From Coriobacteriia bacterium (lineage in GTDB: Bacteria; Actinomycetota; Coriobacteriia; Coriobacteriales; Eggerthellaceae), in the NCBI GenBank assembly GCA_030526515.1, contig JAUNCQ010000014.1:1-43840 (forward strand): DNA of 43,840 bases, written 5' to 3'. This document shows positions 3,067-43,097 of the stretch, one piece after another. The notes under the pieces were generated by a model, which worked only from the letters and a program-made list of their open reading frames with translations, ran no database searches and was not told where the DNA came from. Made by a program: the position numbers and the translations under genes. Position 1 is the stretch's first letter, and every line of letters starts with the position of its first letter.

Positions 3067-5409
3067 ATGAAGTTTTCAACGGCCATGACCGGCACGCGCA
3101 AAATGCTCGCGCTGCTGGTCGCTGGTGCGGCTGCCTTCGGTGCTGCGGGAGCGGTGGCTCTTTCGCCCGTTGCGCAGCAGATGGCATTCGCCGAGGAGTC
3201 GGTGCTTGCCGTTCCTGATGCGGATCGGCTGACGCTCATCGGCGGCAACAACGACGATGGATTCGTGTACTACTACGAGGCCGATCAGGCTTATGAGTCC
3301 ATTGACCTTTCTGCTCTGGGCGATTTCGGCCTGGATTCCATGATCGCCGTCATCAATGGTGACTATTTCGTTGAGGGCTCGGCTACTGCCAGCATTGACC
3401 TGTTTGCTGCTACCAAGGAAGACATTGATGCGGCGAACCTCGGACTCTATGATGATGCCATTGAAGGGCTTGATCTGAACGAGAACGTTTACGTGTTCTG
3501 GTTCATGGACGACGATTATTACTCGGGCTATCTGGTCCTGAAGATGCCGCCTGCTGAGGCCGCTGGTTGCCCGGGCGAAGATCACGACCCTGGCTTCCTG
3601 GTTTCTTCTGAGTCCGGCGTGCGTCAGTTCGAGTCCGTGCATGTGGCGAACTCCTATGAGTACTACGACTACATGGCCAACAAGACCCTGACTGTGTGCC
3701 AGTTCACCGTGAAGATTCCCCAGGGAACCAAAAAGGTGACCATTGACGCCGAGAAGCCGTCCCTGTTCTACAACTACCAGAACGGTCAGTACGTTGCTGG
3801 TTGGGTTGAGGATTACACCCAGGGCGCAGAGTCTGTGACGGTGGACGTTGATGCCAATAACGACGGTACCCTGGACGCCATCCAGGTCCAGGACGTGTAC
3901 AACGCCGACTACAGTGGCGGCGACCTGCGCTATGCCATTGCCTTCGAGGAGATTCCGGCAATCGCTCCGGCCGTCGACGTTGATGCGCTCAAGGCCAACC
4001 TGGCTGCTCGCTTCAGCAAGGGCGGCAGCAATGCGGTCATCGACAACAGCACCTGGGCAGCCGCTATTGCCCTGAACGCTCTGGGCAAGGAGGCCGACAT
4101 TGACGCCGAGGCCATTCTTGCTGATCTGGCAGACCTGGGCGCAGACACCCTGACCCCCGGTCAGCTGGGCAAGTACATCATGGTCCTGACCTCTGCTGGC
4201 GTGGACTGCACCAAGGCCAAGGTCGGCGAGTCCGAGGTCGACCTGGTCCAGATGCTGAAGGACGGCGTTAAGGCCAAGGTCGACGGCGGCAAGGCCATTG
4301 ACGAGTGTTCCGCACCGTGCATCGTTCCGGTATTCGGCTGCTGCGGCTATGACGCAACGGGCTTCGAGACTTATCTGCAGGGCATGATCTCCACCATGGT
4401 CAAGAAGGTTCCGAGCCTGTATGAAGGCTGGGGCTCCATTGACGTCATGAGCACCGGTCAGGCCGTCCTGGCTCTAATTCCCTATGCCGAGGAGGACGAT
4501 GAGGTTGCTACTGCTCTGGGCGAGGCCTTTGACGCACTGATGGACCAGCTGCAGGAGAACGGCAGCTTCCCGACCCAGTGGGGCAACGGCGTTGACGATA
4601 CCGCCCTGGGCTATGCCGCTGTGAAGGCTCTGGGTGCTGACGACCTGGACCTGTTCACCGCCAGCGGCGCACATCCGCTGAGCTTCCTGGCCTCCAAGGC
4701 CAAGGAGACGGCTGACGGCTTCAACGTGAGCGGCGAGGCCCTGAGCGCCTCCAGCGCTCTGCTGGCCCTGGCTGCCGCTGAGGTCGACGGTCCCGTGTAT
4801 CAGGTCCAGAAGCCCGAGGCTGACGACCCCGATGAGGGTGACGAGGGCGATGAGGGAGATGGCAAGGACCCCGACGAGCCTGCTGACATCAAGCCGGGCC
4901 CCACGCCCCTGAAGTCTGCAACTGTGAGCGCTGCGACCAAGCCCTACAACGGCAAGTCCCAGGCTCTGAAGATCTCCGTGAAGGGCGCCGACGGCAAGGC
5001 CCTGGCGGCAGGCGTGGACTATACCCTGAGCCGCAAGACCGTGAAGTACGTGGGTACCTACAAGATCAAGATCACCGGCAAGGGCAAGTACGGCGGCATC
5101 CTGACCAAGTACGTGAAGGTGAACCCGGCCAAGGAAGGCATGGATTACGCCAAGGCTGGCAAGAAGCGCGCCCTGGTGAAGACCACCAAGTCCGCTGCCA
5201 AGTGCGGTGCCACCAAGATCCAGTTCGCCTACAAGAAGGTCGGCGCCTCCAAGTGGAGCTACAAGACCGTCAAGGCAAGCAAGACCTATCTGACCAAGCT
5301 GAGCAAGGGCAAGCGCTACTACGTGAAGGCCCGCGCCATCAAGGTCGTGAACGGCAAGACCTACAAGGGCGCTTGGAGCGCCTGCAAGAAGACTGCCAAG
5401 ATCAGGTAG
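3067..5409 (+). CDS. Secreted alpha/alpha-toroid protein, candidate corrinoid-capture subunit
   Basis: A 780-residue exported protein. A signal peptide (1-42, ending AFA before EES) is followed by an aromatic-rich beta domain of unknown family (about 45-298). Next comes a helical-repeat region (about 303-572) that reads like a prenyltransferase/squalene-cyclase-type alpha/alpha toroid (STWAAAIALNALG, DVMSTGQAVLALIPY, VDDTALGYAAVKALG). Intrinsic factor and transcobalamin use this class of fold for their alpha domain. An acidic linker (583-612) leads to an MBG-like repeat (about 615-687) and a lysine-rich fibronectin-III-like C-terminus (about 700-780). There is no LPXTG motif or C-terminal membrane anchor. 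The ATG at 3067 follows GAGGAGAAAGC; an upstream in-frame start at 3022 lacks such a site. It is the first gene of the B12-riboswitch operon. Corrinoid binding is inferred from fold and context. Confidence 0.75.
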   Translation: MKFSTAMTGTRKMLALLVAGAAAFGAAGAVALSPVAQQMAFAEESVLAVPDADRLTLIGGNNDDGFVYYYEADQAYESIDLSALGDFGLDSMIAVINGDYFVEGSATASIDLFAATKEDIDAANLGLYDDAIEGLDLNENVYVFWFMDDDYYSGYLVLKMPPAEAAGCPGEDHDPGFLVSSESGVRQFESVHVANSYEYYDYMANKTLTVCQFTVKIPQGTKKVTIDAEKPSLFYNYQNGQYVAGWVEDYTQGAESVTVDVDANNDGTLDAIQVQDVYNADYSGGDLRYAIAFEEIPAIAPAVDVDALKANLAARFSKGGSNAVIDNSTWAAAIALNALGKEADIDAEAILADLADLGADTLTPGQLGKYIMVLTSAGVDCTKAKVGESEVDLVQMLKDGVKAKVDGGKAIDECSAPCIVPVFGCCGYDATGFETYLQGMISTMVKKVPSLYEGWGSIDVMSTGQAVLALIPYAEEDDEVATALGEAFDALMDQLQENGSFPTQWGNGVDDTALGYAAVKALGADDLDLFTASGAHPLSFLASKAKETADGFNVSGEALSASSALLALAAAEVDGPVYQVQKPEADDPDEGDEGDEGDGKDPDEPADIKPGPTPLKSATVSAATKPYNGKSQALKISVKGADGKALAAGVDYTLSRKTVKYVGTYKIKITGKGKYGGILTKYVKVNPAKEGMDYAKAGKKRALVKTTKSAAKCGATKIQFAYKKVGASKWSYKTVKASKTYLTKLSKGKRYYVKARAIKVVNGKTYKGAWSACKKTAKIR

Positions 5410-5424
5410 CGGTCTGCTGAACCC

Positions 5425-5464
5425 GTCCGGCCCGCAGCCCGAATATGCAGGTTGCGGGCCGGAC
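5425..5464 (+). other. Intercistronic hairpin between toroid and DUF4430 genes
   Basis: GTCCGGCCCGCA (5425-5436) is perfectly complementary to TGCGGGCCGGAC (5453-5464). There is no following T run, so mRNA stability or partial attenuation between the abundant secreted subunit and the lipoprotein/transporter genes is more likely than full termination. Confidence 0.6.
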
Positions 5465-5490
5465 GTTCGCGTGTACGAGGAGAAGAGATC

Positions 5491-6351
5491 ATGAGCAAAA
5501 CGGTAATGCTACGTGCGGTGGCCTTTGCAGCAGCGGCTGCGCTGGCGCTCTGCCTGGGCGGTTGCGGATCGCCCAACGTCGAGGAGCCTGCAGGGGCCAC
5601 GGCACCGGATACCGCTCAGGAGGAGTCGGACGAAGCCGATCCCGCAGAGGCTGAAGCAGGGGGCGAAAACGCCGATGCGGAGGTTGAGCAGGCGGAGATC
5701 GACGAGGAGTCCGACGAGCCTTCCGCAGACGATGACGCCGAGGAGGCCGACAAGGCTGACGCCGAGGAATCTGACAAGGCCACGGCGAAGGCCGATAGCA
5801 AGAAGGACGCGTCTGCAAGCGACTCGAAGTCCTCGAGCAAGGCTTCGTCCTCAACCAGCAAGAAGGCGGCCTCCGAGGCTGACTCGAAGAAGACCAGCAG
5901 CAAGAACTCCGCGTCCAAGAAGGAGCCGGCGAAGAAGCCTGCGGCCAAGCCCAGCAAGGAGCCTGCCAAGAAACCGTCTTCGGATTCCACGGGCGGTTCC
6001 AGCTCCACCACGCCCAGCAAGCCCGATCCCGTCCCGAGCGCTCCGGAGCCCACGGGCGTGACGGTGACCGTCAGCATTGACGGCGCGGGCTTTATTTCGC
6101 CCGTCACCAATAAGAAGGTGCAGCTGGAGGAAGGCGCCAGCGTGTTCGATGCCTTGAAGAAGGTGGCCACCACCATCGGCGGCAACAAGCGTTATGTGAG
6201 CGCCATCAACGGCCTGGCTGAAAAGGACCACGGCAACCTGTCCGGCTGGATGTACGACGTCAACGGCGAAACCCCCATGATCGAGTGCGGCAAGTACGAG
6301 CTCAAGGACGGCGACGTGGTGAAGTGGTACTACGTCAACGTGGAGAAGTAG
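5491..6351 (+). CDS. DUF4430 lipoprotein, transcobalamin-like beta-domain subunit
   Basis: A 286-residue lipoprotein. The signal peptide ends in the lipobox LGGC, with the lipidated cysteine at about residue 25. Residues 30-185 are a low-complexity stalk rich in Ala, Glu, Asp, Ser and Lys that would span the cell wall. Residues 189-286 are a DUF4430 domain with the typical SGWMYDVNG (251-259) and DGDVVKWYY (273-281) motifs. DUF4430 is related to the C-terminal beta domain of transcobalamin and intrinsic factor. The start at 5491 follows GAGGAGAAG. The gene ends four nt before ecfT, so it is tied to the transporter. I infer that it presents corrinoid to the S component, possibly with the toroid protein. 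Confidence 0.85.
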   Translation: MSKTVMLRAVAFAAAAALALCLGGCGSPNVEEPAGATAPDTAQEESDEADPAEAEAGGENADAEVEQAEIDEESDEPSADDDAEEADKADAEESDKATAKADSKKDASASDSKSSSKASSSTSKKAASEADSKKTSSKNSASKKEPAKKPAAKPSKEPAKKPSSDSTGGSSSTTPSKPDPVPSAPEPTGVTVTVSIDGAGFISPVTNKKVQLEEGASVFDALKKVATTIGGNKRYVSAINGLAEKDHGNLSGWMYDVNGETPMIECGKYELKDGDVVKWYYVNVEK

Positions 6352-6354
6352 CGC

Positions 6355-7263
6355 GTGACCAGGACCGTCTTCAATACGTATCATCCGCTGGTTGCCGCCA
6401 CCTATCTGGTGGCGGCGCTGGCGTTTACCATGGCGGCGTTCCATCCGCTGTTCCTGGCGCCGTCGCTGCTGGTGGCGCTGGGGTACAACGCCTGCCTGAA
6501 GGGGCCGCGGGCCACGGCTCGGTCCCTGGCGTGGCAGCTGCCCCTGGGCCTGGTGATTGCCCTGGTGAACCCGATCTTTTCCCAAAGCGGCTCTACCATT
6601 CTGTTCATGTGGGGCGAAAGCCACGCCTATTACCTGGAGAGCCTGTGCTACGGCGCCTGCATGGGAGCCATGCTGGTGGCGGTCATGGTGTGGTTTTCCA
6701 ACTTCAGCCACATCATGACCAGCGACAAGATCATGCAGCTCACCGGCAACGTGGCGCCGACCCTGGGCCTGATGATCACCATGATCCTGCGGCTGGTTCC
6801 CCAGTTCGTCCGCCGGGGCGGCTCGGTGGGCGCGGTCCAGTCGGTCTGCACGGCGGCATCTGCCGGCGCGGCGGGGGAGGAGCCGGCGACGGGCGGCTTT
6901 TTCGCCCGAAAGGCAGCGCAGCTGCAGGGGAGCATGCGCAACATTTCCGTCCTGATGGGCTGGGGCATGGAGGACTCCCTGGACACGGCCGAGTCCATGC
7001 GCGCCCGCGGCTGGGGCGCGGTGGGGAAGCGCACCACGTATAGGCGCAACGACTTCCGCGCTGCCGACGGCGTGGTCATGGCCGTGCTGGCGGTGCTCAT
7101 TGCCGTGAGCGCCTGGTGCGCGGTGACCGCGTGCTCGTGCTTTACCTTCTACCCGCGCATGTCCACGGCCAACGCGCTGTGGTGGGGATACTATCCGTAC
7201 GTTGCGCTGCTGCTGATGCCGGTTGCGCTTGAGCTGAAGGAGCGTGCCGCATGGCGCAACTGA
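6355..7263 (+). CDS. ecfT: ECF transporter transmembrane component EcfT
   Basis: A 302-residue membrane protein with hydrophobic segments at about 10-45, 58-78, 95-116, 132-150, 235-262 and 278-295. A long cytoplasmic helical region carries the EcfT coupling motif ARGWG at about 217-221, within DTAESMRARGWG, which contacts the ATPases. It starts at a GTG three nt after the lipoprotein stop and overlaps the ATPase gene by 13 nt, so translation is coupled. An insertion rich in Gly and Ala (about 163-182) precedes the coupling helices. The role is to link substrate binding to ATP hydrolysis in an energy-coupling-factor importer, here dedicated to one substrate because its S component lies in the same operon. 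Confidence 0.9.
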   Translation: MTRTVFNTYHPLVAATYLVAALAFTMAAFHPLFLAPSLLVALGYNACLKGPRATARSLAWQLPLGLVIALVNPIFSQSGSTILFMWGESHAYYLESLCYGACMGAMLVAVMVWFSNFSHIMTSDKIMQLTGNVAPTLGLMITMILRLVPQFVRRGGSVGAVQSVCTAASAGAAGEEPATGGFFARKAAQLQGSMRNISVLMGWGMEDSLDTAESMRARGWGAVGKRTTYRRNDFRAADGVVMAVLAVLIAVSAWCAVTACSCFTFYPRMSTANALWWGYYPYVALLLMPVALELKERAAWRN

Positions 7264-30893: not shown

Positions 30894-31144
30894 GGGCGAA
30901 AGTTTCGTCCGGCAATTCGACATTTGTGAATATATGACCAATGCCACTATATTCCTTGCTCTGGGGTCGGAATTGTCCTACTATACCGTTGTTGCTATTT
31001 GCACGCTGCAACTAATTCCGTACACAAATATACGACCTGATTCACTAACTAGTGGGGCAGGGACGGGTTCGGCGGGCAGATGGCAGAATGCTTGGCTGGC
31101 ATTCCAAGAAATTTGACAACGGAAAACATGAAAGGACGTTTCTC
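30894..31144 (+). promoter_or_regulatory. glpF upstream region with octamer pair and Crp/Fnr-like site
   Basis: GGGCGAAA (30894-30901) and TTTCGTCC (30903-30910) form an inverted octamer pair. TTGTGAATATATGACCAA (30924-30941) is a partly symmetric sequence resembling Crp/Fnr-family sites. ATGCCACTAT at 30941-30950 recurs exactly upstream of the NSS transporter (29132-29141). The remaining bases up to the glpF start are AT-richer and show no gene. Confidence 0.45.
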
Positions 31145-31939
31145 ATGGCAGAAACCGTAAAGGGCAACGAAATCCTTCGTAACGCCCTGGGCGAAATCAT
31201 CGGCACCTTCCTGATGTGCTTCCTGGGCATTGGCGCAGTGGCCAACGCAACGCTGGGCGTTTCCGGCGCATTCGGCGGCCCGTTCCAGGTCGGTATGGTC
31301 TGGGGCATCACCATTGCCATTGCCATCTACGCAACCCGCAACCTGTCCTGCGCCCACTTCAATCCCGCAGTGACCTTTGCCATGTGCCTGACCGGCCGCC
31401 TGCCCTGGGGCAAGGCTCCCATCTACCTGGTGGGTCAGTTCGTCGGCGCCATCCTTGCTGCCGCTTGCCTGTGGGCCCTGTTCGGCGAGTCCTGCATTGC
31501 CGCAGGCACCGCAATGGACTGGTCCTCCATCTGGGCTGAGCGCACTCCGAACGGCGTCCCCGCTGCCAGCACCCTGGTCGGCTGCCTGGCTGAGGGCATT
31601 GGCGTGTTCATCCTGGTGTTCGTGATCTTCTCCATGACCGAGGACGCAAACGCTGGCAAGCCCGGCGACGTCATCTTCCCGCTGTTCATCGGCCTGACCG
31701 TCACCATGATCATCGTCACCGTCGGCCCCATCACCGACGCTGGTCTTAACCCGGCCCGTGACCTTGGTCCCCGTGTGATCGCAGCCATCTGCGGCATGAC
31801 CGAGCCCATGAACGGCAACGTCGTGGCGACCCTGCTGATCTACACCGTTTCCCCGCTGATTGGCGGCGGCCTTGCTGGCCTGTTCTACACCAAGTTCGTG
31901 GACAAGCAGCATGCTGACGCTGTTGCCGCTTCCAAGTAG
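31145..31939 (+). CDS. glpF: Glycerol facilitator / aquaporin (MIP family)
   Basis: A 264-residue major intrinsic protein with six membrane helices and the two pore half-helices. The first NPA motif is FNPAVT (about 72-77) and the second is LNPARDLGPR (about 201-210). The D after the second NPAR (NPARD) is the mark of glycerol-conducting aquaglyceroporins, so glycerol uptake is likely and complements the glycerol kinase at 10251. The ATG at 31145 follows GAAAGGACG; longer in-frame starts lack a binding site. It is a single gene with its own terminator. Confidence 0.92.
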   Translation: MAETVKGNEILRNALGEIIGTFLMCFLGIGAVANATLGVSGAFGGPFQVGMVWGITIAIAIYATRNLSCAHFNPAVTFAMCLTGRLPWGKAPIYLVGQFVGAILAAACLWALFGESCIAAGTAMDWSSIWAERTPNGVPAASTLVGCLAEGIGVFILVFVIFSMTEDANAGKPGDVIFPLFIGLTVTMIIVTVGPITDAGLNPARDLGPRVIAAICGMTEPMNGNVVATLLIYTVSPLIGGGLAGLFYTKFVDKQHADAVAASK

Positions 31940-31963
31940 GGAAGCCTAAATTCAGTCCCCTGA

Positions 31964-31993
31964 CAGAAAAGCCCCGGTAACGGGGCTTTTCTG
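31964..31993 (+). terminator. Terminator after glpF
   Basis: CAGAAAAGCCCCG (31964-31976) pairs perfectly with CGGGGCTTTTCTG (31981-31993) across a GTAA tetraloop. The A and T runs inside the stem make it potentially bidirectional. Confidence 0.85.
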
Positions 31994-32011
31994 CGTTATA
32001 GGGTCATATCC

Positions 32012-32034
32012 AATAGTTTCAAATTGATACTATT
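32012..32034. promoter_or_regulatory. 23-bp near-perfect palindrome upstream of ArsM-like gene
   Basis: AATAGT at 32012-32017 and ACTATT at 32029-32034 flank a core TCAAaTTGA (32019-32027), giving a 23-bp palindrome with only one mismatched pair and a central base. It has the size and symmetry of a repressor operator, such as those of ArsR/SmtB proteins, but no such regulator is encoded here. It lies 180 nt before the methyltransferase. Confidence 0.45.
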
Positions 32035-32215
32035 GCCATTGTTTTTGCTGCTGCGGCGGACTATCATTGCTTTCTGTTGACGGCATTTGCCCTGTTCAAG
32101 GCCAAATGCACGCTTCGTCACCTATGCCAGCTAAGCATGATTTCCGGCTCCCGGCCGGGGAGCAGTATTCGCGCGCCTGCCCTCAGGCGCTTACCTAGAC
32201 GAAAGAGGTTCATGC

Positions 32216-33154
32216 ATGAGCGAGATTCGCGTTCCTGGCACTCCCAATGACAAGATCGCCCAGATTCTGAAGACCATCCCGCAGGAGGTCATCGACGGCA
32301 CCCTGACCACCGGCTTCCCCTTCCCGCCGGCCATGGACGGCATCCGCGTCCTGGTCCTGGGCTGCGGCGCCGGCCGTGACGCCTACATTGCCTCCGCCCT
32401 GGTGGGACAGGATGGCATGGTCATAGGCGTCGACCCCGATCCGGAGAAGATCGCCGTGGCGCGCAAGGCCGCTCCCGCCAACTGCCAGTTCCTGGTCCAG
32501 GAGCTCGACAACCTGGAGGCCCTGGTGGATGGCGAAATCGACCTGGTCATCTCCAACTGCGGCATCTCCGCTCCCATCAACACCCAGGCCGTGCTGGACG
32601 AGATCTGGCGCGTGTCCGCCTACGGCGCCGAGCTCTTCGCCTGCGATATCTTCGCCGACCGCCGCATGCTGCCCTACATCAAGGCTTGCCCGACCAAGCG
32701 TGCCGAGGGCACCGGCTCCGCCCTGTACATCGAGGACTTCCGCCGCTGCATGACCAAGGCCGGCTGGGAGGACTTCCGCCACATGCGCACCGTCCTGGCA
32801 ACCACCGACGATCCGCTGTTCGAGGGCATCACCTTCTTCGCCCGCACCGTCCGCGCCTACAAGATGCCGGATAAGATCGAGGACCTGTGCGAGCAGTACA
32901 ACCAGGTTGCCACCTACAAGGGCGGCATCGAGGGCTGCGAGGACTACTACGACCTGGACGACCACCATCGCTTCGTCAAGGACGAGCCCCTGGAGGTTTG
33001 CGGCAACTCCTGCGCCATGGTCCAGGACACCCGCGTGGGCAAGTTCTTCGAGGTCACCGGCAACCGCAACGTCCACTACGGCCCGTATCCCGGCTGCGGC
33101 AACATCCCCTACACCGCAGACGACGGCTCCGTGGAGACCAGCAGCTGCTGCTAA
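32216..33154 (+). CDS. ArsM-like SAM-dependent methyltransferase
   Basis: A 312-residue class I methyltransferase. Motif I is LVLGCGAGRDAYIASALVG (47-65), with the acidic loop GVDPD at 71-75 and VISNCGIS at 111-118. The C-terminal half follows the layout of bacterial arsenite methyltransferases: ATYKGGIEG (232-240), LDDHHRF (247-253), VCGNSCAMVQDTR (261-273), and a final GPYPGCG and Cys-rich tail SSCC. In ArsM enzymes the SNC-type cysteine binds trivalent arsenic; it is kept here (C115). Arsenite methylation is a good hypothesis, but no ars resistance gene is adjacent. The start follows AAAGAGG. The DUF5714 gene downstream is a likely partner, though a terminator lies between them. Confidence 0.7.
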   Translation: MSEIRVPGTPNDKIAQILKTIPQEVIDGTLTTGFPFPPAMDGIRVLVLGCGAGRDAYIASALVGQDGMVIGVDPDPEKIAVARKAAPANCQFLVQELDNLEALVDGEIDLVISNCGISAPINTQAVLDEIWRVSAYGAELFACDIFADRRMLPYIKACPTKRAEGTGSALYIEDFRRCMTKAGWEDFRHMRTVLATTDDPLFEGITFFARTVRAYKMPDKIEDLCEQYNQVATYKGGIEGCEDYYDLDDHHRFVKDEPLEVCGNSCAMVQDTRVGKFFEVTGNRNVHYGPYPGCGNIPYTADDGSVETSSCC

Positions 33155-33178
33155 GCCGCGCTGAACCGTGAAACCGTG

Positions 33179-33217
33179 CGCGCCCCCTTGGAGTATCTGG
33201 CAAGGGGGCGCGTCTTT
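33179..33217 (+). terminator. Terminator after ArsM-like gene, member of a repeated family
   Basis: CGCGCCCCCTTG (33179-33190) pairs perfectly with CAAGGGGGCGCG (33201-33212), followed by TCTTT. The left arm and loop match the terminator at 30846-30888. Confidence 0.85.
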
Positions 33218-33311
33218 GTATTAGCATGGGACGAAAGCCACGGGCGTTTTCGCCCAACGTCTGAAGGGGCTCACGAGTCCCGTTCCCCGAACCAAGCAAA
33301 GGAGACCACCT

Positions 33312-34037
33312 ATGGCGGGAGCGCTTCCCAACTGCCTGATCTGCGGGGCCGACCTGGTCTACGCGTCCGAGTCCACCCTGCATACCTGCGCCGTGTGCGG
33401 CAAGGAGGAAATGGGCACCACCGCCTGCGAGGGCGGCCACTACGTGTGCAACACCTGCCACAGGCAGGGCGGCGTGGACTTCATGCGCAAGCTGTGCGTG
33501 CTTTCTCGCTCCAAGAACGCGGTGGAGATCCTGACCCAGGCCATGGAGGACAAGTCCGTCTACCCCAACGGCCCCGAGCACCATACCATGGTGGGCGCGG
33601 CGCTGCTGACGGCCTACTACAACGCCGGCGGCAAGATCGGCGGCGGCCGCATGACCAAGGGCGATGCCCTGAAGGAGCTCCAGGCCCGCAGCATGCAGGT
33701 CCCTGGCGGCACCTGCGGCTTCTGGGGTTGCTGCGGCGCGGCTACCAGCGCCGGCCAGGCCCTGAGCATCATCAACGGGTCCACGCCCCTGAAGCGGGAC
33801 GAGTGGGGCCAGTGCCAACGCCTCACCTCCACCATCTTGGGGCACCTGGCGGACCAGGGCGGCCCTCGCTGCTGCAAGCGCACGGGCTACACCGCGCTGC
33901 TGGACGGCACCGACTTCCTGAACGAGCACTTCAACGTGCGCATGGAGCGCCCGGAGTCCGTGACCTGCCGCTTCAGAGCCGGCAACAAGCAGTGCCTGCG
34001 CCGGGAGTGCCCGTACTTCCCGAAGAAGGGGGAGTAG
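33312..34037 (+). CDS. DUF5714 cysteine-rich protein
   Basis: A 241-residue protein of unknown biochemical role. The N-terminus holds zinc-ribbon-like cysteine pairs (CLIC at 8-11, CAVC at 26-29, CNTC at 46-49). The DUF5714 core follows, with PEHHTMVGAALLTAYYNAGG, VPGGTCGFWGCCGAA and GGPRCCKRTGY, and the C-terminus adds CRFRAGNKQCLRRECPYF. Many conserved cysteines suggest metal, Fe-S or metalloid chemistry. Such proteins are, as I recall, often found beside SAM methyltransferases, as here. The start at 33312 follows AAAGGAG. An inverted octamer pair (33229-33255) lies upstream. Confidence 0.8.
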   Translation: MAGALPNCLICGADLVYASESTLHTCAVCGKEEMGTTACEGGHYVCNTCHRQGGVDFMRKLCVLSRSKNAVEILTQAMEDKSVYPNGPEHHTMVGAALLTAYYNAGGKIGGGRMTKGDALKELQARSMQVPGGTCGFWGCCGAATSAGQALSIINGSTPLKRDEWGQCQRLTSTILGHLADQGGPRCCKRTGYTALLDGTDFLNEHFNVRMERPESVTCRFRAGNKQCLRRECPYFPKKGE

Positions 34038-38043: not shown

Positions 38044-38595
38044 CTATGCCGTGGGCTCGATGTCCTCGGGCTCGGGTGCCCTGGCGTCCTCGGGCTCGGC
38101 GGGTTGGACGGCCTGCTGGTCGTGACGGTCGATGGCCTGCTGGCGCTCCCGGGGGTCGTCCAGGCTCACCACCTCGTACAGGTACTGGCTCACGGCGGGG
38201 CGGTTCTTCTTCTTGAGCTCGTGCTCCCAGATGACCACCACGTTCCAGCCGGCTTCGCGCAGGGCCGCGTAGGTACGTTGGTCTCGCTCCACGTTGCGGG
38301 TGAACTTGGCCTCCCAGTAGGGGACGTTGGTCTTGGGGGTGGGCAGGCTGCACACTGGGCAGCGATGCCAGAAGCAGCCGTTCACGAAGATGGCGATCTT
38401 GCGGCCCGGGTAGGCTATGTCCGGGTGGCCAGGGCACTTCTTCCACTGCAGGCGATAGCCCGGGAACCCCTGCTCCCGCAGCATCTGGCGGACCACCTGC
38501 TCGGGCTTGGTGTTGGCCCGCTTGTTGCCCTTCATGCACTTGCGGGTGGCCGGCGCCACCGGCCCCATGATCTGCGGTTCGTCAGCGGCGGGCAT
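38044..38595 (-). CDS. vsr: Very short patch repair endonuclease (Vsr)
   Basis: A 183-residue Vsr nuclease, longer than the usual 130-150. The core has NTKPEQVVRQMLREQGFPGYRLQ (about 28-50), HPDIAYPGRKIAIFVNG (57-73) with the catalytic aspartate, and the zinc/active-site GCFWHRCPVC (73-82). Vsr nicks T:G mismatches left by deamination of 5-methylcytosine, so a cytosine-C5 methyltransferase should exist elsewhere; none is in this window. The C-terminal 45 residues are Pro/Glu/Gln-rich and probably disordered. Its start overlaps the end of the VanZ-RDD gene by 14 nt, implying one operon. Confidence 0.9.
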   Translation of the reverse strand: MPAADEPQIMGPVAPATRKCMKGNKRANTKPEQVVRQMLREQGFPGYRLQWKKCPGHPDIAYPGRKIAIFVNGCFWHRCPVCSLPTPKTNVPYWEAKFTRNVERDQRTYAALREAGWNVVVIWEHELKKKNRPAVSQYLYEVVSLDDPRERQQAIDRHDQQAVQPAEPEDARAPEPEDIEPTA

Positions 38596-39934
38596 GGTAC
38601 TTGCTGCTCCCTCGGTCGTACTGGCTTGCGTTGGCGTTGGCGTAGGGTTCCGCCGCCTGCGGTGCTCGGGCGGCCTCTACGGGCACGCTGGCTGCCTTCG
38701 GGTAGGCGTTGGTCGAAACCGTCGGCGTTGCGACCGGAGCCGCGGTTGCGGCGGCGTTGCGGCGCATGCGGATGTCCTGGGCCTGCTTGGAGGACATGAC
38801 GCGCGTGTTGGCGAACAGCTCCGAGAGCAGGACGAAGGGCCGGTGGAACAGGGACATGAGCGCGCGCAGGGCAATGCTCACCAGCCACAGCAGGTAGGCG
38901 GCGCCCACCACGCCGGCCAGGTCGTCGAAGGTCAGGCCGTCCACGGAGCCCGGGTACAGCGATACCACCCATGGAATGATGATCTGCAGCAGCCATACGA
39001 ACAGGCCGTAGTGGACTATGGGCCCGTACCACGGCGCCCGGCTGCCTTCGGGGGTGACCAGGCGCAGGCCCACCACCAGCTGGCCCGGGGTGCGCATGCC
39101 CAGCAGCTGCGGCACCACCATGAACACCAGGCCGGTGACCGCCAGCGAAAGCAGCAGGTCGAAGTTTTCCGGCATGGTGGAGCTGTTGACGGGGTCGGGG
39201 CCGATGACCTGGTACGCACCCAGGTAGATCACGGTGACCACGGTCATGTCTAGGATGAAGCTGACCAGGCGGCGCGTGAAGGTGGTGTAGCGCTGGCCCT
39301 TGGCGCGGGCGCGGGCGTTCATTTCGTCCACATCCGGCAGGAGCAGGCCCAAGGGGACCATGAGCAGCCAGCCCACCACGGCGCCCAGGGTGTTCAGCTC
39401 CAGGTCGCAGACGTCGAACAGGCGGTAGGGGTGGTCGTACAGGCCGTACAGGCCGCTGAGCTGGGTCAGCTCGAAGAACAGCGTCAGGCCGAAGCCCAGG
39501 ATGAGCGTCTGCCACAGGGGGCGGCGCATGAAGTACTGCAGGAACATGCCGAAGGGCACCGTCAGCGCTACGTTGAACACGGCCTGGTAGACGTTGCGGT
39601 TGGTCAGGAACGCCAGCCAGGCGTGCTTGGTGCCGGATGACAGGCCGGCGTTGGCGGCGGCATCGCGCAGCTCGCGGAGCACCAGCAGCGGGTCCATCTG
39701 GGGCACCTGGGCGTAGGGGACCACGGCATGGCGGTCCGCCGGCAGCGGCAGGATCACCAGGTAGTAGGCGCACAGCAGGTACAGGGCAAAGGCGAACACG
39801 CACAGGGTCTTCCACGGCGGAATGGAGCCGTAGCGGCGGTACTGGTAGGCCATGTAAGGCACGGACATCAGCAGCGCCAGCAGGGGGAAGCAGGCAAAGG
39901 CGAAGTTGATGTTCGCCAGGTATACGTTGAACAC
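38582..39934 (-). CDS. VanZ-RDD fusion membrane protein
   Basis: A 450-residue membrane protein. The N-terminal half (about 1-205) is VanZ-like, with NVALTVPFGMFLQYF and DLELNTLGAVVGWLL motifs. The middle (about 228-375) is an RDD domain with RRLVSFILDM and the TPGQLVVGLRLVTPEG signature. A basic, Ala/Pro/Ser-rich cytoplasmic tail follows (about 390-450). The two domains occur together in various Gram-positive bacteria. VanZ relates to teicoplanin resistance in enterococci; RDD proteins include Na+/H+ antiporters. The true role is unknown. It is the second gene of a three-gene minus-strand operon. Confidence 0.85.
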   Translation of the reverse strand: MFNVYLANINFAFACFPLLALLMSVPYMAYQYRRYGSIPPWKTLCVFAFALYLLCAYYLVILPLPADRHAVVPYAQVPQMDPLLVLRELRDAAANAGLSSGTKHAWLAFLTNRNVYQAVFNVALTVPFGMFLQYFMRRPLWQTLILGFGLTLFFELTQLSGLYGLYDHPYRLFDVCDLELNTLGAVVGWLLMVPLGLLLPDVDEMNARARAKGQRYTTFTRRLVSFILDMTVVTVIYLGAYQVIGPDPVNSSTMPENFDLLLSLAVTGLVFMVVPQLLGMRTPGQLVVGLRLVTPEGSRAPWYGPIVHYGLFVWLLQIIIPWVVSLYPGSVDGLTFDDLAGVVGAAYLLWLVSIALRALMSLFHRPFVLLSELFANTRVMSSKQAQDIRMRRNAAATAAPVATPTVSTNAYPKAASVPVEAARAPQAAEPYANANASQYDRGSSKYHARR

Positions 39935-39940
39935 GGGAGG

Positions 39941-40357
39941 CTACCTCCGGTTGCGGGGGTCGTAGGGGCCGCGGGTGAGGGCTTCCAGCACCTTGCGCAG
40001 CAGGGCCTCGGGGCGGCTGATGGTGCGGGCCCAGACGGGCTCCTCGGCGTAGTTGGGGTGGTTCTTCCGGAACCGGGCGCGGCAGATCAGGGTGATTCCC
40101 AGGGCTGCCGCGGACACGGCCAGGAACGCGCCGAAGAACTCCAGCACCGCCTGGTTCCCTTCGATGGCGGCATAGGCGCATGCCAGGACGAAAAGAACGC
40201 ACAACGCGGTGGTCAGGACGGTGAACAGCTTCACCAGGATTTCCTTGGCGCGGTTGGGGGACTGCCGCCAGGACACGAACACATAGACCGCCACGGCAAG
40301 GACGGCCAGTGCCAGCATGAGGGGCAGCGATTGTATGAGGCGAATCAGAATTGTCAT
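39941..40357 (-). CDS. Membrane protein of unknown function
   Basis: A 138-residue protein with predicted membrane helices at about 9-29, 43-64 and 71-92, followed by a charged cytoplasmic tail (about 93-138) rich in Arg and Pro. I recognise no family. It ends six nt before the VanZ-RDD gene and is probably its operon partner. The start lies at the edge of the divergent promoter region shared with the TetR fusion gene. Confidence 0.7.
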   Translation of the reverse strand: MTILIRLIQSLPLMLALAVLAVAVYVFVSWRQSPNRAKEILVKLFTVLTTALCVLFVLACAYAAIEGNQAVLEFFGAFLAVSAAALGITLICRARFRKNHPNYAEEPVWARTISRPEALLRKVLEALTRGPYDPRNRR

Positions 40358-40443: not shown

Positions 40444-40468
40444 CATTTTCCATAATCATTAGAAAATG
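40444..40468. promoter_or_regulatory. Palindrome in the divergent promoter region, likely TetR operator
   Basis: CATTTTC (40444-40450) and GAAAATG (40462-40468) are perfect complements with an 11-nt spacer. The site lies between the divergent membrane-protein operon and the TetR fusion gene, about 100 nt before the latter, where TetR regulators usually bind. The rest of 40358-40570 shows no gene. Confidence 0.55.
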
Positions 40469-40570
40469 AAATCGTGGAATTCGCGCTCTGAGCGGGGGAA
40501 ATGTGTGTTAGTGTAGTTTCAGAGACGAAGCGTTTTCATCCCCTCGGAAACAGGCGCGGAGGTGTGTTTT

Positions 40571-42034
40571 GTGGTGAAGAAAAATCTCACAAACAACAAA
40601 GAAAAAGCTGCGCCCGTCCGCAGGGGTCGACCTCGCAAGGACGGAGCTGTCAGCACGAACCAGCGGGAGGAGATCCTTGACGCTGCCGCGAAGCTGTTCA
40701 CGAGCCAAGGCTGCTCCCGAACCACCATGAGCTCCATTTCCCATGAGGTGGGAATGGACCAGTCTTCCATCTACTACTGGTTCAAGAACAAGGACGACAT
40801 CCTGTTGGCCCTGCTGGCCCGGACCGTCGAGCGCAACAGGGGCATGATCGAGCGCTTGGCCGAAGTTCTTCCCCGGGATGGGGAGGAGGACCTGTTCATC
40901 TGCGCCATGGCCTATGCGGCCACCTACGTGATGTGCGACCTTCCCTACGAGTTCCGCGAGGTGGAGGCTCTTTCCCTGCGCCGTCCTGATGACGTGAAAA
41001 GCTATCTGAAGGACTACGGCCGGACCTACCGGACGGTGGGCCGGGCCATCGAGCGCGGCATCCGCAGGGGCATCTTCCGGGTGGACAGCCCCGAGATGGC
41101 GGCGGAGTTCTTTTTCGCCCAGGTCGAAGGTGCGCAGCACCGCCATCACCTGCGTTGCTTGAACGCCTGGGAGGACACGTTCACCTACGTGCGCTCCTTC
41201 GCCTTCGAGCGGATTCCCACCAAGTCGGATGAAGCCCGTCTTGCTGCCACCACCATCTGCCTAGCCCTGTGCACCGAGCGCAACGTGGTGAGGCTGTTCC
41301 GCGAGCTTGCGCTGCGGGGGTGGCTTGAATGCGAGTCCCATATTGAGCTGAGCCTGTACTACGGCAAGCGAACCTTCGAGTTCGGCCGGGAGAGCCTGTG
41401 CAAGATGACCCTGCCGGATAACCTGGAGGGCCTGACGGTGCTGGACGCCGGCTGCCGTCGTGGCAAGGGCGCGTACAAGATCAGCCAGATGGTGGGTCCC
41501 ACCGGCCGCGTTATCGGCACCAATTGGAACGCTGAGTACATCCGCGAGGCCCAGGCCGGCGTGCCTCGGGCGCTGGAGCGCAGCGGGTTTGCCGAAAGCA
41601 ACATGGAGTTCAGCGTGGTGTTCCCGGAGGACCTGCACTGGGCGGGCATTGAGGACGGCACCGTGGACGTGGTGTACGCCAACACGGCGCTGAACCTGAC
41701 CTTCGAGCCCCGTGAGGTTGTCAACGAGTTCTATCGCGTCCTGAAGCCGGGCGGCCTGCTGATCCAGGGGCTGGTCGTGGCAGAGGGCGAAGTGTCCGAG
41801 CCCGTGGTGCGTGCGGCACGACGCATTGGCAATTGCGTTCAGGCGGCACCTTCCCGCAAGCAGGCCTTTGAGGCGTTCCGCGATGCTGGGTTCCAGGAGC
41901 CGGAGATCGTGGAGTCGTACCCGGTGAGGCCCGACCAGGGCAGTCGCGATGGCTACCGGGTTCCCACGGTGGACTTTGCGGAGGACGCGGTCTTCTACGA
42001 GGAGGTCCTCCACCTGCGCAAGCCCGCGGAGTAG
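40571..42034 (+). CDS. TetR-family regulator fused to an ArsM-like SAM methyltransferase domain
   Basis: A 487-residue fusion. A basic tail (RRGRPRKDG, 18-25) precedes a TetR helix-turn-helix (about 31-76: QREEILDAAAKLF ... DQSSIYYWFKNKDDIL) and a helical TetR ligand-domain region (about 80-235). From about 255 the sequence resembles an ArsM-like methyltransferase: motif I TVLDAGCRRGKG (289-300), GPTGRVIGTNW (309-319), DVVYANTALNL (366-376) and EFYRVLKPGGLLI (386-398). The arsenic-binding cysteine position of ArsM (SNC) reads ANT here, so arsenite methylation is unlikely; the domain may sense SAM or another ligand, or modify something else. The GTG at 40571 is eight nt after GGAGG; a GTG at 40562 overlaps that site. 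Confidence 0.85.
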   Translation: MVKKNLTNNKEKAAPVRRGRPRKDGAVSTNQREEILDAAAKLFTSQGCSRTTMSSISHEVGMDQSSIYYWFKNKDDILLALLARTVERNRGMIERLAEVLPRDGEEDLFICAMAYAATYVMCDLPYEFREVEALSLRRPDDVKSYLKDYGRTYRTVGRAIERGIRRGIFRVDSPEMAAEFFFAQVEGAQHRHHLRCLNAWEDTFTYVRSFAFERIPTKSDEARLAATTICLALCTERNVVRLFRELALRGWLECESHIELSLYYGKRTFEFGRESLCKMTLPDNLEGLTVLDAGCRRGKGAYKISQMVGPTGRVIGTNWNAEYIREAQAGVPRALERSGFAESNMEFSVVFPEDLHWAGIEDGTVDVVYANTALNLTFEPREVVNEFYRVLKPGGLLIQGLVVAEGEVSEPVVRAARRIGNCVQAAPSRKQAFEAFRDAGFQEPEIVESYPVRPDQGSRDGYRVPTVDFAEDAVFYEEVLHLRKPAE

Positions 42035-42075: not shown

Positions 42076-42107
42076 CGCCTAGTCGGTGGTTCCGGCTAGG
42101 CGTTTTT
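42076..42107. terminator. Terminator between convergent TetR fusion and GH25 genes
   Basis: CGCCTAG (42076-42082) pairs with CTAGGCG (42096-42102), followed by TTTTT. The minus-strand lysozyme stop codon (42096-42098) lies in the right arm. Confidence 0.75.
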
Positions 42108-43097
42108 CATGCGCAGGTTCACGTCTACCGGCGTGCTGATGCCGGGCACCTGACCGGACTCGGTGTACTGCCAGTAGGTGAAGGGCAGCGTGCTGGCGGG
42201 GGCGGCGGTGTGGTATTCGGCGTACCAGATGGGGTAGGTCCGCAGCAGGTCCCGGTCGAAGAGCTGCAGGTCCTGCTTGTTTCCGTAGAGGATCGGGCCG
42301 GTGCCCAGGTCTGCCACCTCCTGGCAGAAGGCGCGGGCGCAGGCGCTGGCCTGCTTCTGGGTCAGGTTGCTGATGCGGGAGTCGGGGGTGACCTCCAGGT
42401 CGAAGGCCACGGGGCCGGTGAGCTCCAGGCCTTCCAGCAGTTGTCGCAGGTAGGCGGCTTCCTGGCGGGCCTCGTCCTCTGTGGTGGCCTGGCTGAAGAA
42501 GTAGGCACCCACGGTCAGGCCGGCCTGCTGGGCTTGCTGGATGTTTTCGCGGTAGCGCTTGTCGGCGTACAGGGATCCTTCGGTGGTGCCGCGGCGGCCC
42601 ACGCGGACGAAGGCGAACTCTACGCCGCTTTGGGCCACCGCGTTCCAGTCGATCTGGCCCTGGTGATCGGAAACGTCCACGCCCACGGAGGACACCACCT
42701 GGCCGTTTTCGGTGTATGCGTAGAAGGAGCCGTTGGTGCTCAGGTTGGCCCAATCGTAGGGGCTCTTCTGGGCGGTGCTGCAGGAGCGCAGGGCGTTGGC
42801 TGCCGCCAGGCCCAGGGCCACGGCCAGGACCATGAGCAGCAGCGGGCGCAGCGGGAGACGCCGCCGGGGTGCGGTTGCTGCGGGGGCGGCGTTGTGGCGG
42901 GCGGCAGCGGGGCGCGCGGATCGCTGGCGGGCGTTGGCGCCGCGGGTGCCGGCGCTGCGGTTGGCGGTGCCGCGGGTGGCGCGAGATGTCGGTGCGGCGC
43001 TGCGGCTGGCGCGAGGTGGCGGCGCGGGCCGGGTGCTGCGAGAGCGCGCTGCGGTGCTGCGGCGGGTCGTCCCCTGGTCGGGCCTTCTGGAGGGCAT
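42096..43097 (-). CDS. GH25 lysozyme (N-acetylmuramidase), membrane-anchored
   Basis: A 333-residue protein. Residues 1-82 are a basic Arg/Ala/Pro/Ser/Thr-rich cytoplasmic tail, and 84-104 is a single membrane helix. The rest is a GH25 catalytic domain (about 137-330): GVDVSDHQGQIDW (139-151) with the catalytic aspartate, GAYFFSQATTEDEARQEA (197-214), AFDLEV (231-236), and the closing FTYWQYTESGQVPGI. It would cut the glycan of peptidoglycan outside the membrane, during remodelling or division. The ATG at 43097 follows AAAGGA on the minus strand. The frame stays open further upstream to 43772, but that part is antisense to the DUF523 gene. Confidence 0.88.
   Translation of the reverse strand: MPSRRPDQGTTRRSTAARSRSTRPAPPPRASRSAAPTSRATRGTANRSAGTRGANARQRSARPAAARHNAAPAATAPRRRLPLRPLLLMVLAVALGLAAANALRSCSTAQKSPYDWANLSTNGSFYAYTENGQVVSSVGVDVSDHQGQIDWNAVAQSGVEFAFVRVGRRGTTEGSLYADKRYRENIQQAQQAGLTVGAYFFSQATTEDEARQEAAYLRQLLEGLELTGPVAFDLEVTPDSRISNLTQKQASACARAFCQEVADLGTGPILYGNKQDLQLFDRDLLRTYPIWYAEYHTAAPASTLPFTYWQYTESGQVPGISTPVDVNLRMKNA

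Follow-up and report, generated by a model that had tools for sequence, protein, structure and literature searches.

Fusions between a transcriptional regulator and a methyltransferase (MTase) have already been published for the ArsR type, and the TetR version described here varies this arrangement; no TetR-MTase fusion was found among the papers listed by the literature searches. Some members of the SahR group carry an MTase domain. SahR has been described as a SAH-responsive regulator of the ArsR family that controls a SAM-cycle regulon in Proteobacteria (PMC4239095). ArsR^M, an ArsR-MTase fusion of Brevundimonas sp. M20, is encoded in a met operon; it was described to bind its own promoter in EMSA, and methylation of As(III) was reported for it (PMC10190100).

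The fusion gene studied here lies in a stretch of 43,840 nucleotides from the genome of a Coriobacteriia bacterium of the gut (G000), which is referred to as the window. The coordinates of the gene, its domains and its neighbors are listed in Table 1. Reading of the open reading frames showed a continuous frame from GTG 40571, or from GTG 40562, to the stop at 42034. The downstream start is the likelier one, since a ribosome-binding-like GGAGG sequence (40558-40562) is located 8 nt before it; residue numbers throughout the text nevertheless refer to the longer, 490-aa version. The predicted protein matched the Pfam models TetR_N (1.3e-12, 47.7 bits vs. a cut-off of 24, residues 38-84) and Methyltransf_31 (4.4e-15, 56.1 bits vs. 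a cut-off of 27, residues 289-431). With both domains above their cut-offs and no break in between, the proposal of the sequence-only reading, that one frame joins a TetR DNA-binding region to a class I MTase, was confirmed. No ArsR model was among the matches listed for the fusion, the DNA-binding match being TetR_N.

Table 1. Features of the TetR-MTase locus, in window coordinates (residue numbers of the 490-aa version).
Feature	Position	Strand	Remarks
VanZ-RDD membrane protein, next in divergent operon	38582..39934	-	Pfam PF04892, PF06271
138-aa membrane protein, divergent neighbor	39941..40357	-	Homologues in 119/395 genomes
Gapped inverted repeat CATTTTC-N11-GAAAATG	40444..40468	.	Weak operator candidate
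TetR-MTase fusion gene	40571..42034	+	487 aa from GTG 40571; 490 aa if GTG 40562
TetR_N helix-turn-helix domain	40673..40813	+	aa 38-84; PF00440; pLDDT about 80-91
TetR ligand/dimer domain	40823..41326	+	About aa 88-255; homologues in the order; helical in model
Joint of the halves, LECESHIE	41324..41347	+	aa 255-262; stand-alone TetRs end, MTases begin
CRxGKG-family ArsM-fold domain	41348..42028	+	aa 263-489; tree, alignment, model, Z 24.2 to 4fr0
Cys280, equivalent of CmArsM Cys72	41399..41401	+	
Altered motif I, DAGCRRGKG	41444..41470	+	aa 295-303
Asn321, position of CmArsM Asp115 / human AS3MT Asp102	41522..41524	+	
Thr375, position of the CmArsM catalytic Cys174	41684..41686	+	
Cys425, equivalent of CmArsM Cys224	41834..41836	+	
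GH25 muramidase, convergent neighbor	42096..42833	-	Also beside the G001 fusion and the G033 single MTase

The fusion is not confined to one assembly. An equal fusion is encoded by a second genome of the same genus, the metagenome-assembled genome (MAG) of Eggerthellales bacterium isolate SUG1186 (G001), on contig JAQXGX010000111.1. There the gene is cut by the contig end, and the remaining 460 residues contain no internal stop and are 67% identical to the window protein, with the same joint and with the identity spanning it.

Homologues of the TetR ligand domain were detected in 9 of the 395 genomes of the order, namely the two fusions and seven stand-alone regulators. In the full-length model this domain was predicted to be helical at low confidence, much of it with a pLDDT below 60. 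Stand-alone TetRs (G128, G109, G361, G070-G073 and Rhodococcus opacus WP_065493491.1) share the helix-turn-helix (HTH) and the ligand domain with the fusion at 26-39% identity, and differ from it in that they stop at or near the joint and lack the MTase. Two of them (with the tails ...NNWI in G128 and ...AHGWLA in G109, vs. ...ALRGWL in the fusion) stop at the joint or directly beside it, the tails of G070 and G071 are slightly different, and the 244-codon Rhodococcus gene aligns with fusion residues 22-254. Because stand-alone TetRs stop and single MTases start at the joint, the fusion is, judged by these alignments, a complete TetR-type regulator joined to a complete class I MTase fold. The PDB matches of the HTH include AmtR. 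As a separate observation, stand-alone relatives from two distant bacteria (L064, L150) are located near glutamine-synthetase (GS)-family genes: the one of G109 has a type III glutamate-ammonia ligase nearby, and the Rhodococcus gene has a GS-family gene and a gamma-glutamyl-GABA hydrolase nearby.

The structure of the MTase half was predicted by AlphaFold2 with a pLDDT of 94.5 and a pTM of 0.91. The best structure match of this model by VIA-align was CrArsM (5evj_B; Z 25.2, rmsd 2.3 over 206 residues), and comparison with SAM-bound CmArsM (4fr0) gave a Z of 24.2 and an rmsd of 2.0 over 205 residues with 30% identity. Judged by these values, the ArsM fold of the MTase half is predicted with confidence. 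Its score against the NCBIfam ArsM model NF008823 was 71.3 bits, far below the cut-off of 263. The residues of the cofactor and arsenic sites were then compared with those of CmArsM, which correspond to the window protein as follows: Y70 to S278, C72 to C280, G91 to G297, C92 to C298, G93 to R299, D97 to G303, D115 to N321, M116 to W322, Q120 to Y326, I151 to P355, E152 to E356, C174 to T375 and C224 to C425. Nine of the CmArsM residues are described as its SAM network (Y70, G91, C92, D115, M116, Q120, I151, E152 and C174; PMC3790734); the window protein retains three of the nine and the G001 protein four, and the Gly93 of the motif I GxGxG is an Arg. In human AS3MT the variants Y59A, G78A, D102P, D102N and C156S are described as inactive (PMC3790734). 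At these positions the window protein has Ser278 for Tyr59, Asn321 for Asp102 and Thr375 for Cys156, of which only the Asp to Asn change equals a published inactive mutant, the others having been published as Y59A and C156S.

The domain belongs to a family of MTases with an altered motif I, for which we coined the name CRxGKG. Among 56 relatives that are not fused to TetR, R299 and G303 were present in all (56/56), compared with Gly and Asp, respectively, in 8/8 ArsM sequences. The position of the catalytic Cys174 was Ser in 29, Asn in 24, Tyr in 1 and Cys in 2 relatives. Since R299 and G303 are common to the family and Cys174 is replaced in 54/56, the aligned sequences indicate that the cofactor site is rewritten at the base of the CRxGKG family. 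Position 321 was Asp in 53 and Glu in 3 of the 56 relatives, Asp in G001 and Asn in the window only, and Asn321 is thus an extra change of the window species. These results put two remarks of the sequence-only reading into perspective. The lost arsenic cysteine is real, with ANT in place of SNC, but it concerns one of the three arsenic-binding positions (C72, C174 and C224 of CmArsM) and is shared by nearly the whole family, while C280 and C425 are kept. Likewise, the odd residues IGTNW after motif I are present, and motif I itself reads DAGCRRGKG, but its Arg is found family-wide and Asn321 alone sets this gene apart.

Because several ArsM residues are lost, the C-terminal domain would not act as an arsenite methyltransferase in the fusion. 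The MTase half may still be an active SAM-dependent enzyme with another substrate, so that the protein would be regulator and enzyme in one and would act chemically on the very compound that it senses, a mode of action proposed for ArsR^M. This alternative, which we regard as somewhat unlikely, draws on the description of Brevundimonas ArsR^M, for which promoter binding and As(III) methylation are reported without the usual arsenic cysteines. It also draws on the conservation of D295 in 48/56 relatives, on E356, D369 and N374, which occur in 56/56 and are kept in the window, and on Cys280 and Cys425, which are present in both fusions (Cys425 in only 1/56 non-TetR relatives). It is weakened by Asn321 in place of the ribose Asp, the change that is inactive as D102N in human AS3MT, by the Arg for Gly in motif I, by Thr or Ala at the position of Cys174, and by Ser at that of Tyr70.

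By sequence, the MTase half is most closely related to domains found at the C-terminus of MoxR-type AAA+ ATPases and to MTases encoded singly; identity is 41-48% in the better matches. A tree was calculated from 66 domain rows, 58 of them with the altered motif I (29 MoxR-fused, 27 labelled single and 2 TetR) and 8 of them ArsM; some rows labelled single (L012, L055, L057) may stem from MoxR fusions that were truncated at a contig end or by the limits of the frame. The CRxGKG and ArsM rows were split at 100/100. Inside the CRxGKG side the backbone was not resolved, and the two fusions paired weakly (60/98). R299, G301, G303, M282, Y267 and N374 were invariant in the CRxGKG clade, and all six occur in both fusions. 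At E values up to 1e-30, the CRxGKG profile matched 5/296 sampled genomes of the phylum, all of this bacterial family. Both fusion genomes also encode a MoxR-MTase gene (G000:C41 and G001:C108). The idea that the fusion recently acquired its MTase domain from the MoxR-MTase gene of its own genome was not supported, as the MoxR-MTases of G000 and G001 pair in the main MoxR clade (100/100) and the fusions lie outside this 27-row clade.

The genes around the family members were inspected at hand-picked loci, which are not a random sample. Of 39 non-TetR CRxGKG genes, 8 were fused to MoxR, another 12 belonged to a MoxR operon or adjoined one, and the remaining 19 were located elsewhere. A recurrent operon encodes a BspA-like LRR protein, a DUF2201 VWA-like protein and a MoxR AAA+ ATPase, and the MoxR protein carries or adjoins the CRxGKG MTase (L032, L034, L036, L068-L070, L075, L076, L130-L132); at L068 it also includes proteins of 279 and 193 aa (4976-5815 and 6651-7232) without a Pfam match at E 0.01. 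No functional assignment of the CRxGKG family or of the LRR-VWA-MoxR operon was found in the searches made. The CRxGKG domain might be a docking module for this MoxR-VWA(DUF2201)-LRR chaperone system, in which case the fusion would tie a regulator to an AAA+ machine. The genes fused to MoxR or lying in or next to MoxR operons at the hand-picked loci and the MoxR-MTase genes of both fusion genomes would fit this idea, but no MoxR genes lie close to the fusion gene, and the same holds for roughly half of the family members that were inspected; we consider the idea clearly unlikely. In a side observation on the ArsM fold, ArsM domains open frames of 695-815 aa at L024, L028, L029 and L033, and in the first three a radical-SAM-like part with a CxxxCxxC motif, read by eye, follows the ArsM domain.

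Among the matches listed for the 395 genomes of the order, only G000 and G001 had matches that span both halves. No match to the fusion query was found in phages, and none of 83 matching plasmid records had a place covering 80% of the query. Comparison of the window gene with that of G001 gave a Ka of 0.243 and a Ks of 0.92 for the whole protein (ratio about 0.26), 0.133 and 0.47 for the HTH, 0.243 and 1.11 for the TetR ligand domain, and 0.276 and 0.94 for the MTase half (ratio about 0.29). Ka is low relative to Ks in each part, which points to purifying selection on both halves. A neutral or recent fusion, in which the TetR half works alone and the MTase half contributes nothing, would agree with the presence of the fusion in only these two genomes, but it is made very unlikely by the Ka/Ks of the MTase half at a Ks near 0.9 and by the intact frame in both species. 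An assembly or frameshift artefact has practically no chance. Although the two genomes consist of many pieces (93 and about 200 contigs) and the G001 gene of the MAG is truncated, the fusion recurs in this second assembly of the genus, with the same joint, no internal stop and 67% identity across the joint in the two species.

The fusion gene is divergent from a membrane-protein operon. The sequence-only reading had claimed a perfect palindrome in the shared promoter, which turned out to be a gapped 7-11-7 repeat that is neither perfect nor contiguous. The repeat is unique in G000, and arms of at least 7 were obtained in 104 of 1,000 mononucleotide shuffles of the 213-bp intergenic stretch; as an operator it thus has no support beyond chance. 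It was absent from G001 at up to 1 mismatch, where the region 5' of the fusion lies outside the contig. No sigma-70-like promoter or terminator was found in the region. A gene for a Vsr-like mismatch endonuclease follows the VanZ-RDD gene in the same orientation (the two at window 38044-39934), and the neighbors also include a frame that we take to be DUF523-like. Methionine or SAM-cycle genes were not found beside the fusion, the neighbors being the Vsr-like, VanZ-RDD, membrane protein and GH25 genes. In G033, a single CRxGKG MTase is located between the same 138-aa membrane protein and GH25; the membrane protein usually occurs elsewhere. This gene order suggests that a TetR gene may have been fused to an MTase that was already at the locus. 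The G033 MTase did not group with the fusions in the tree, and the AU test (p = 0.063) neither supports nor clearly rejects such a grouping. Elsewhere in the window (31088-34037), three genes form a possible metalloid-handling cluster: an aquaglyceroporin-like gene, named from its sequence, an ArsM-like MTase with GCGAGRD and SNC (77 bits with NF008823, below the cut-off), and a protein with cysteines and no in-frame TGA, whose match to the MbdU double selenoprotein model covers positions 39-269 out of 468.

On the best reading of these results, to which we assign a probability of about 45%, the fusion is a TetR regulator whose ArsM-fold module serves as a sensor and has lost the methylation of arsenite. 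The TetR half would bind operator DNA as a dimer; its probable targets, judging from the divergent arrangement, are its own gene and the membrane-protein/VanZ-RDD operon. By analogy with ArsR^M and SahR, the protein would be a one-component TetR regulator whose C-terminal domain is most likely a second sensing module. Its remodelled pocket, with the invariant Arg299, Gly303, Tyr267 and Asn374 and the near-invariant Lys/Arg302, Asn424 and Gln427, may bind a small molecule, for which SAM, SAH or a different charged metabolite are candidates, and binding could alter the affinity of the dimer for DNA. The DNA targets, the ligand binding and the signal coupling of the fusion are what we infer; the data themselves show the fusion and its conservation in two species, the predicted fold, the altered residues and the membership in the family. 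A conserved function of the pocket is suggested rather than decay, because the alternative residue set is invariant across the 56 relatives. The proposal of the sequence-only reading that the MTase fold reads SAM or a metabolite is in line with the ArsR-type precedents and is less easily reconciled, for SAM, with the heavily altered ArsM contacts. Several points count against the sensor reading: G001 keeps Asp321, and a mechanism common to both fusions therefore does not include the loss of this Asp; E356, D369 and N374 are retained, which leaves room for catalysis on another substrate; and the presence of relatives in MoxR operons speaks for a chaperone-linked role instead.

For the family as a whole we tentatively propose that CRxGKG is a lineage-specific, catalytically repurposed ArsM fold that serves the Eggerthellales as a plug-in metabolite sensor, its partner being either a MoxR-VWA AAA+ chaperone or, in a single genus, TetR, with the invariant motif I Arg reading a ligand other than plain SAM; we hold this to be possible, though rather doubtful. 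If true, no earlier one-component regulator of the TetR type would have had a sensor with a methyltransferase fold. The MTase half also brings to light a family of ArsM-like proteins whose motif I is rewritten and which is integrated into a MoxR AAA+ system, and with DNA binding the fusion offers a simple readout for finding the ligand of the CRxGKG family.

Compared with known systems, the MTase half resembles ArsM/AS3MT (PDB 4fr0, 5evj, 6cx6 and 8xt7) in the fold of the C-terminal half, with Z 21-25 and 28-32% identity over about 200 residues, and differs from it in the changes of Tyr70 to Ser, Gly93 to Arg, Asp97 to Gly, Asp115 to Asn and Cys174 to Thr and in its low NCBIfam score. The MoxR AAA+ ATPases of the same order share the CRxGKG MTase at the C-terminus, but their N-terminal half is a MoxR ATPase and their genes belong to the LRR-VWA-MoxR operon. 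SahR may be likened to the fusion as a one-component type of regulator, its own feature being the response to a SAM-cycle metabolite; it differs in its ArsR family, its regulon of SAM-cycle genes and its occurrence in Proteobacteria. The fusion has a C-terminal MTase domain on a one-component regulator, as does ArsR^M, in which an N-terminal DNA-binding regulator is likewise followed by an ArsM-like MTase and the usual arsenic cysteines are described to make no contacts. In ArsR^M, as described, the regulator half is of the ArsR/SmtB type and the gene lies in a met operon, whereas the window fusion has a TetR half, VanZ/RDD and GH25 neighbors and a remodelled motif I. A TetR regulator with an enzyme-derived second domain would extend what is known from the ArsR type to the large TetR family.
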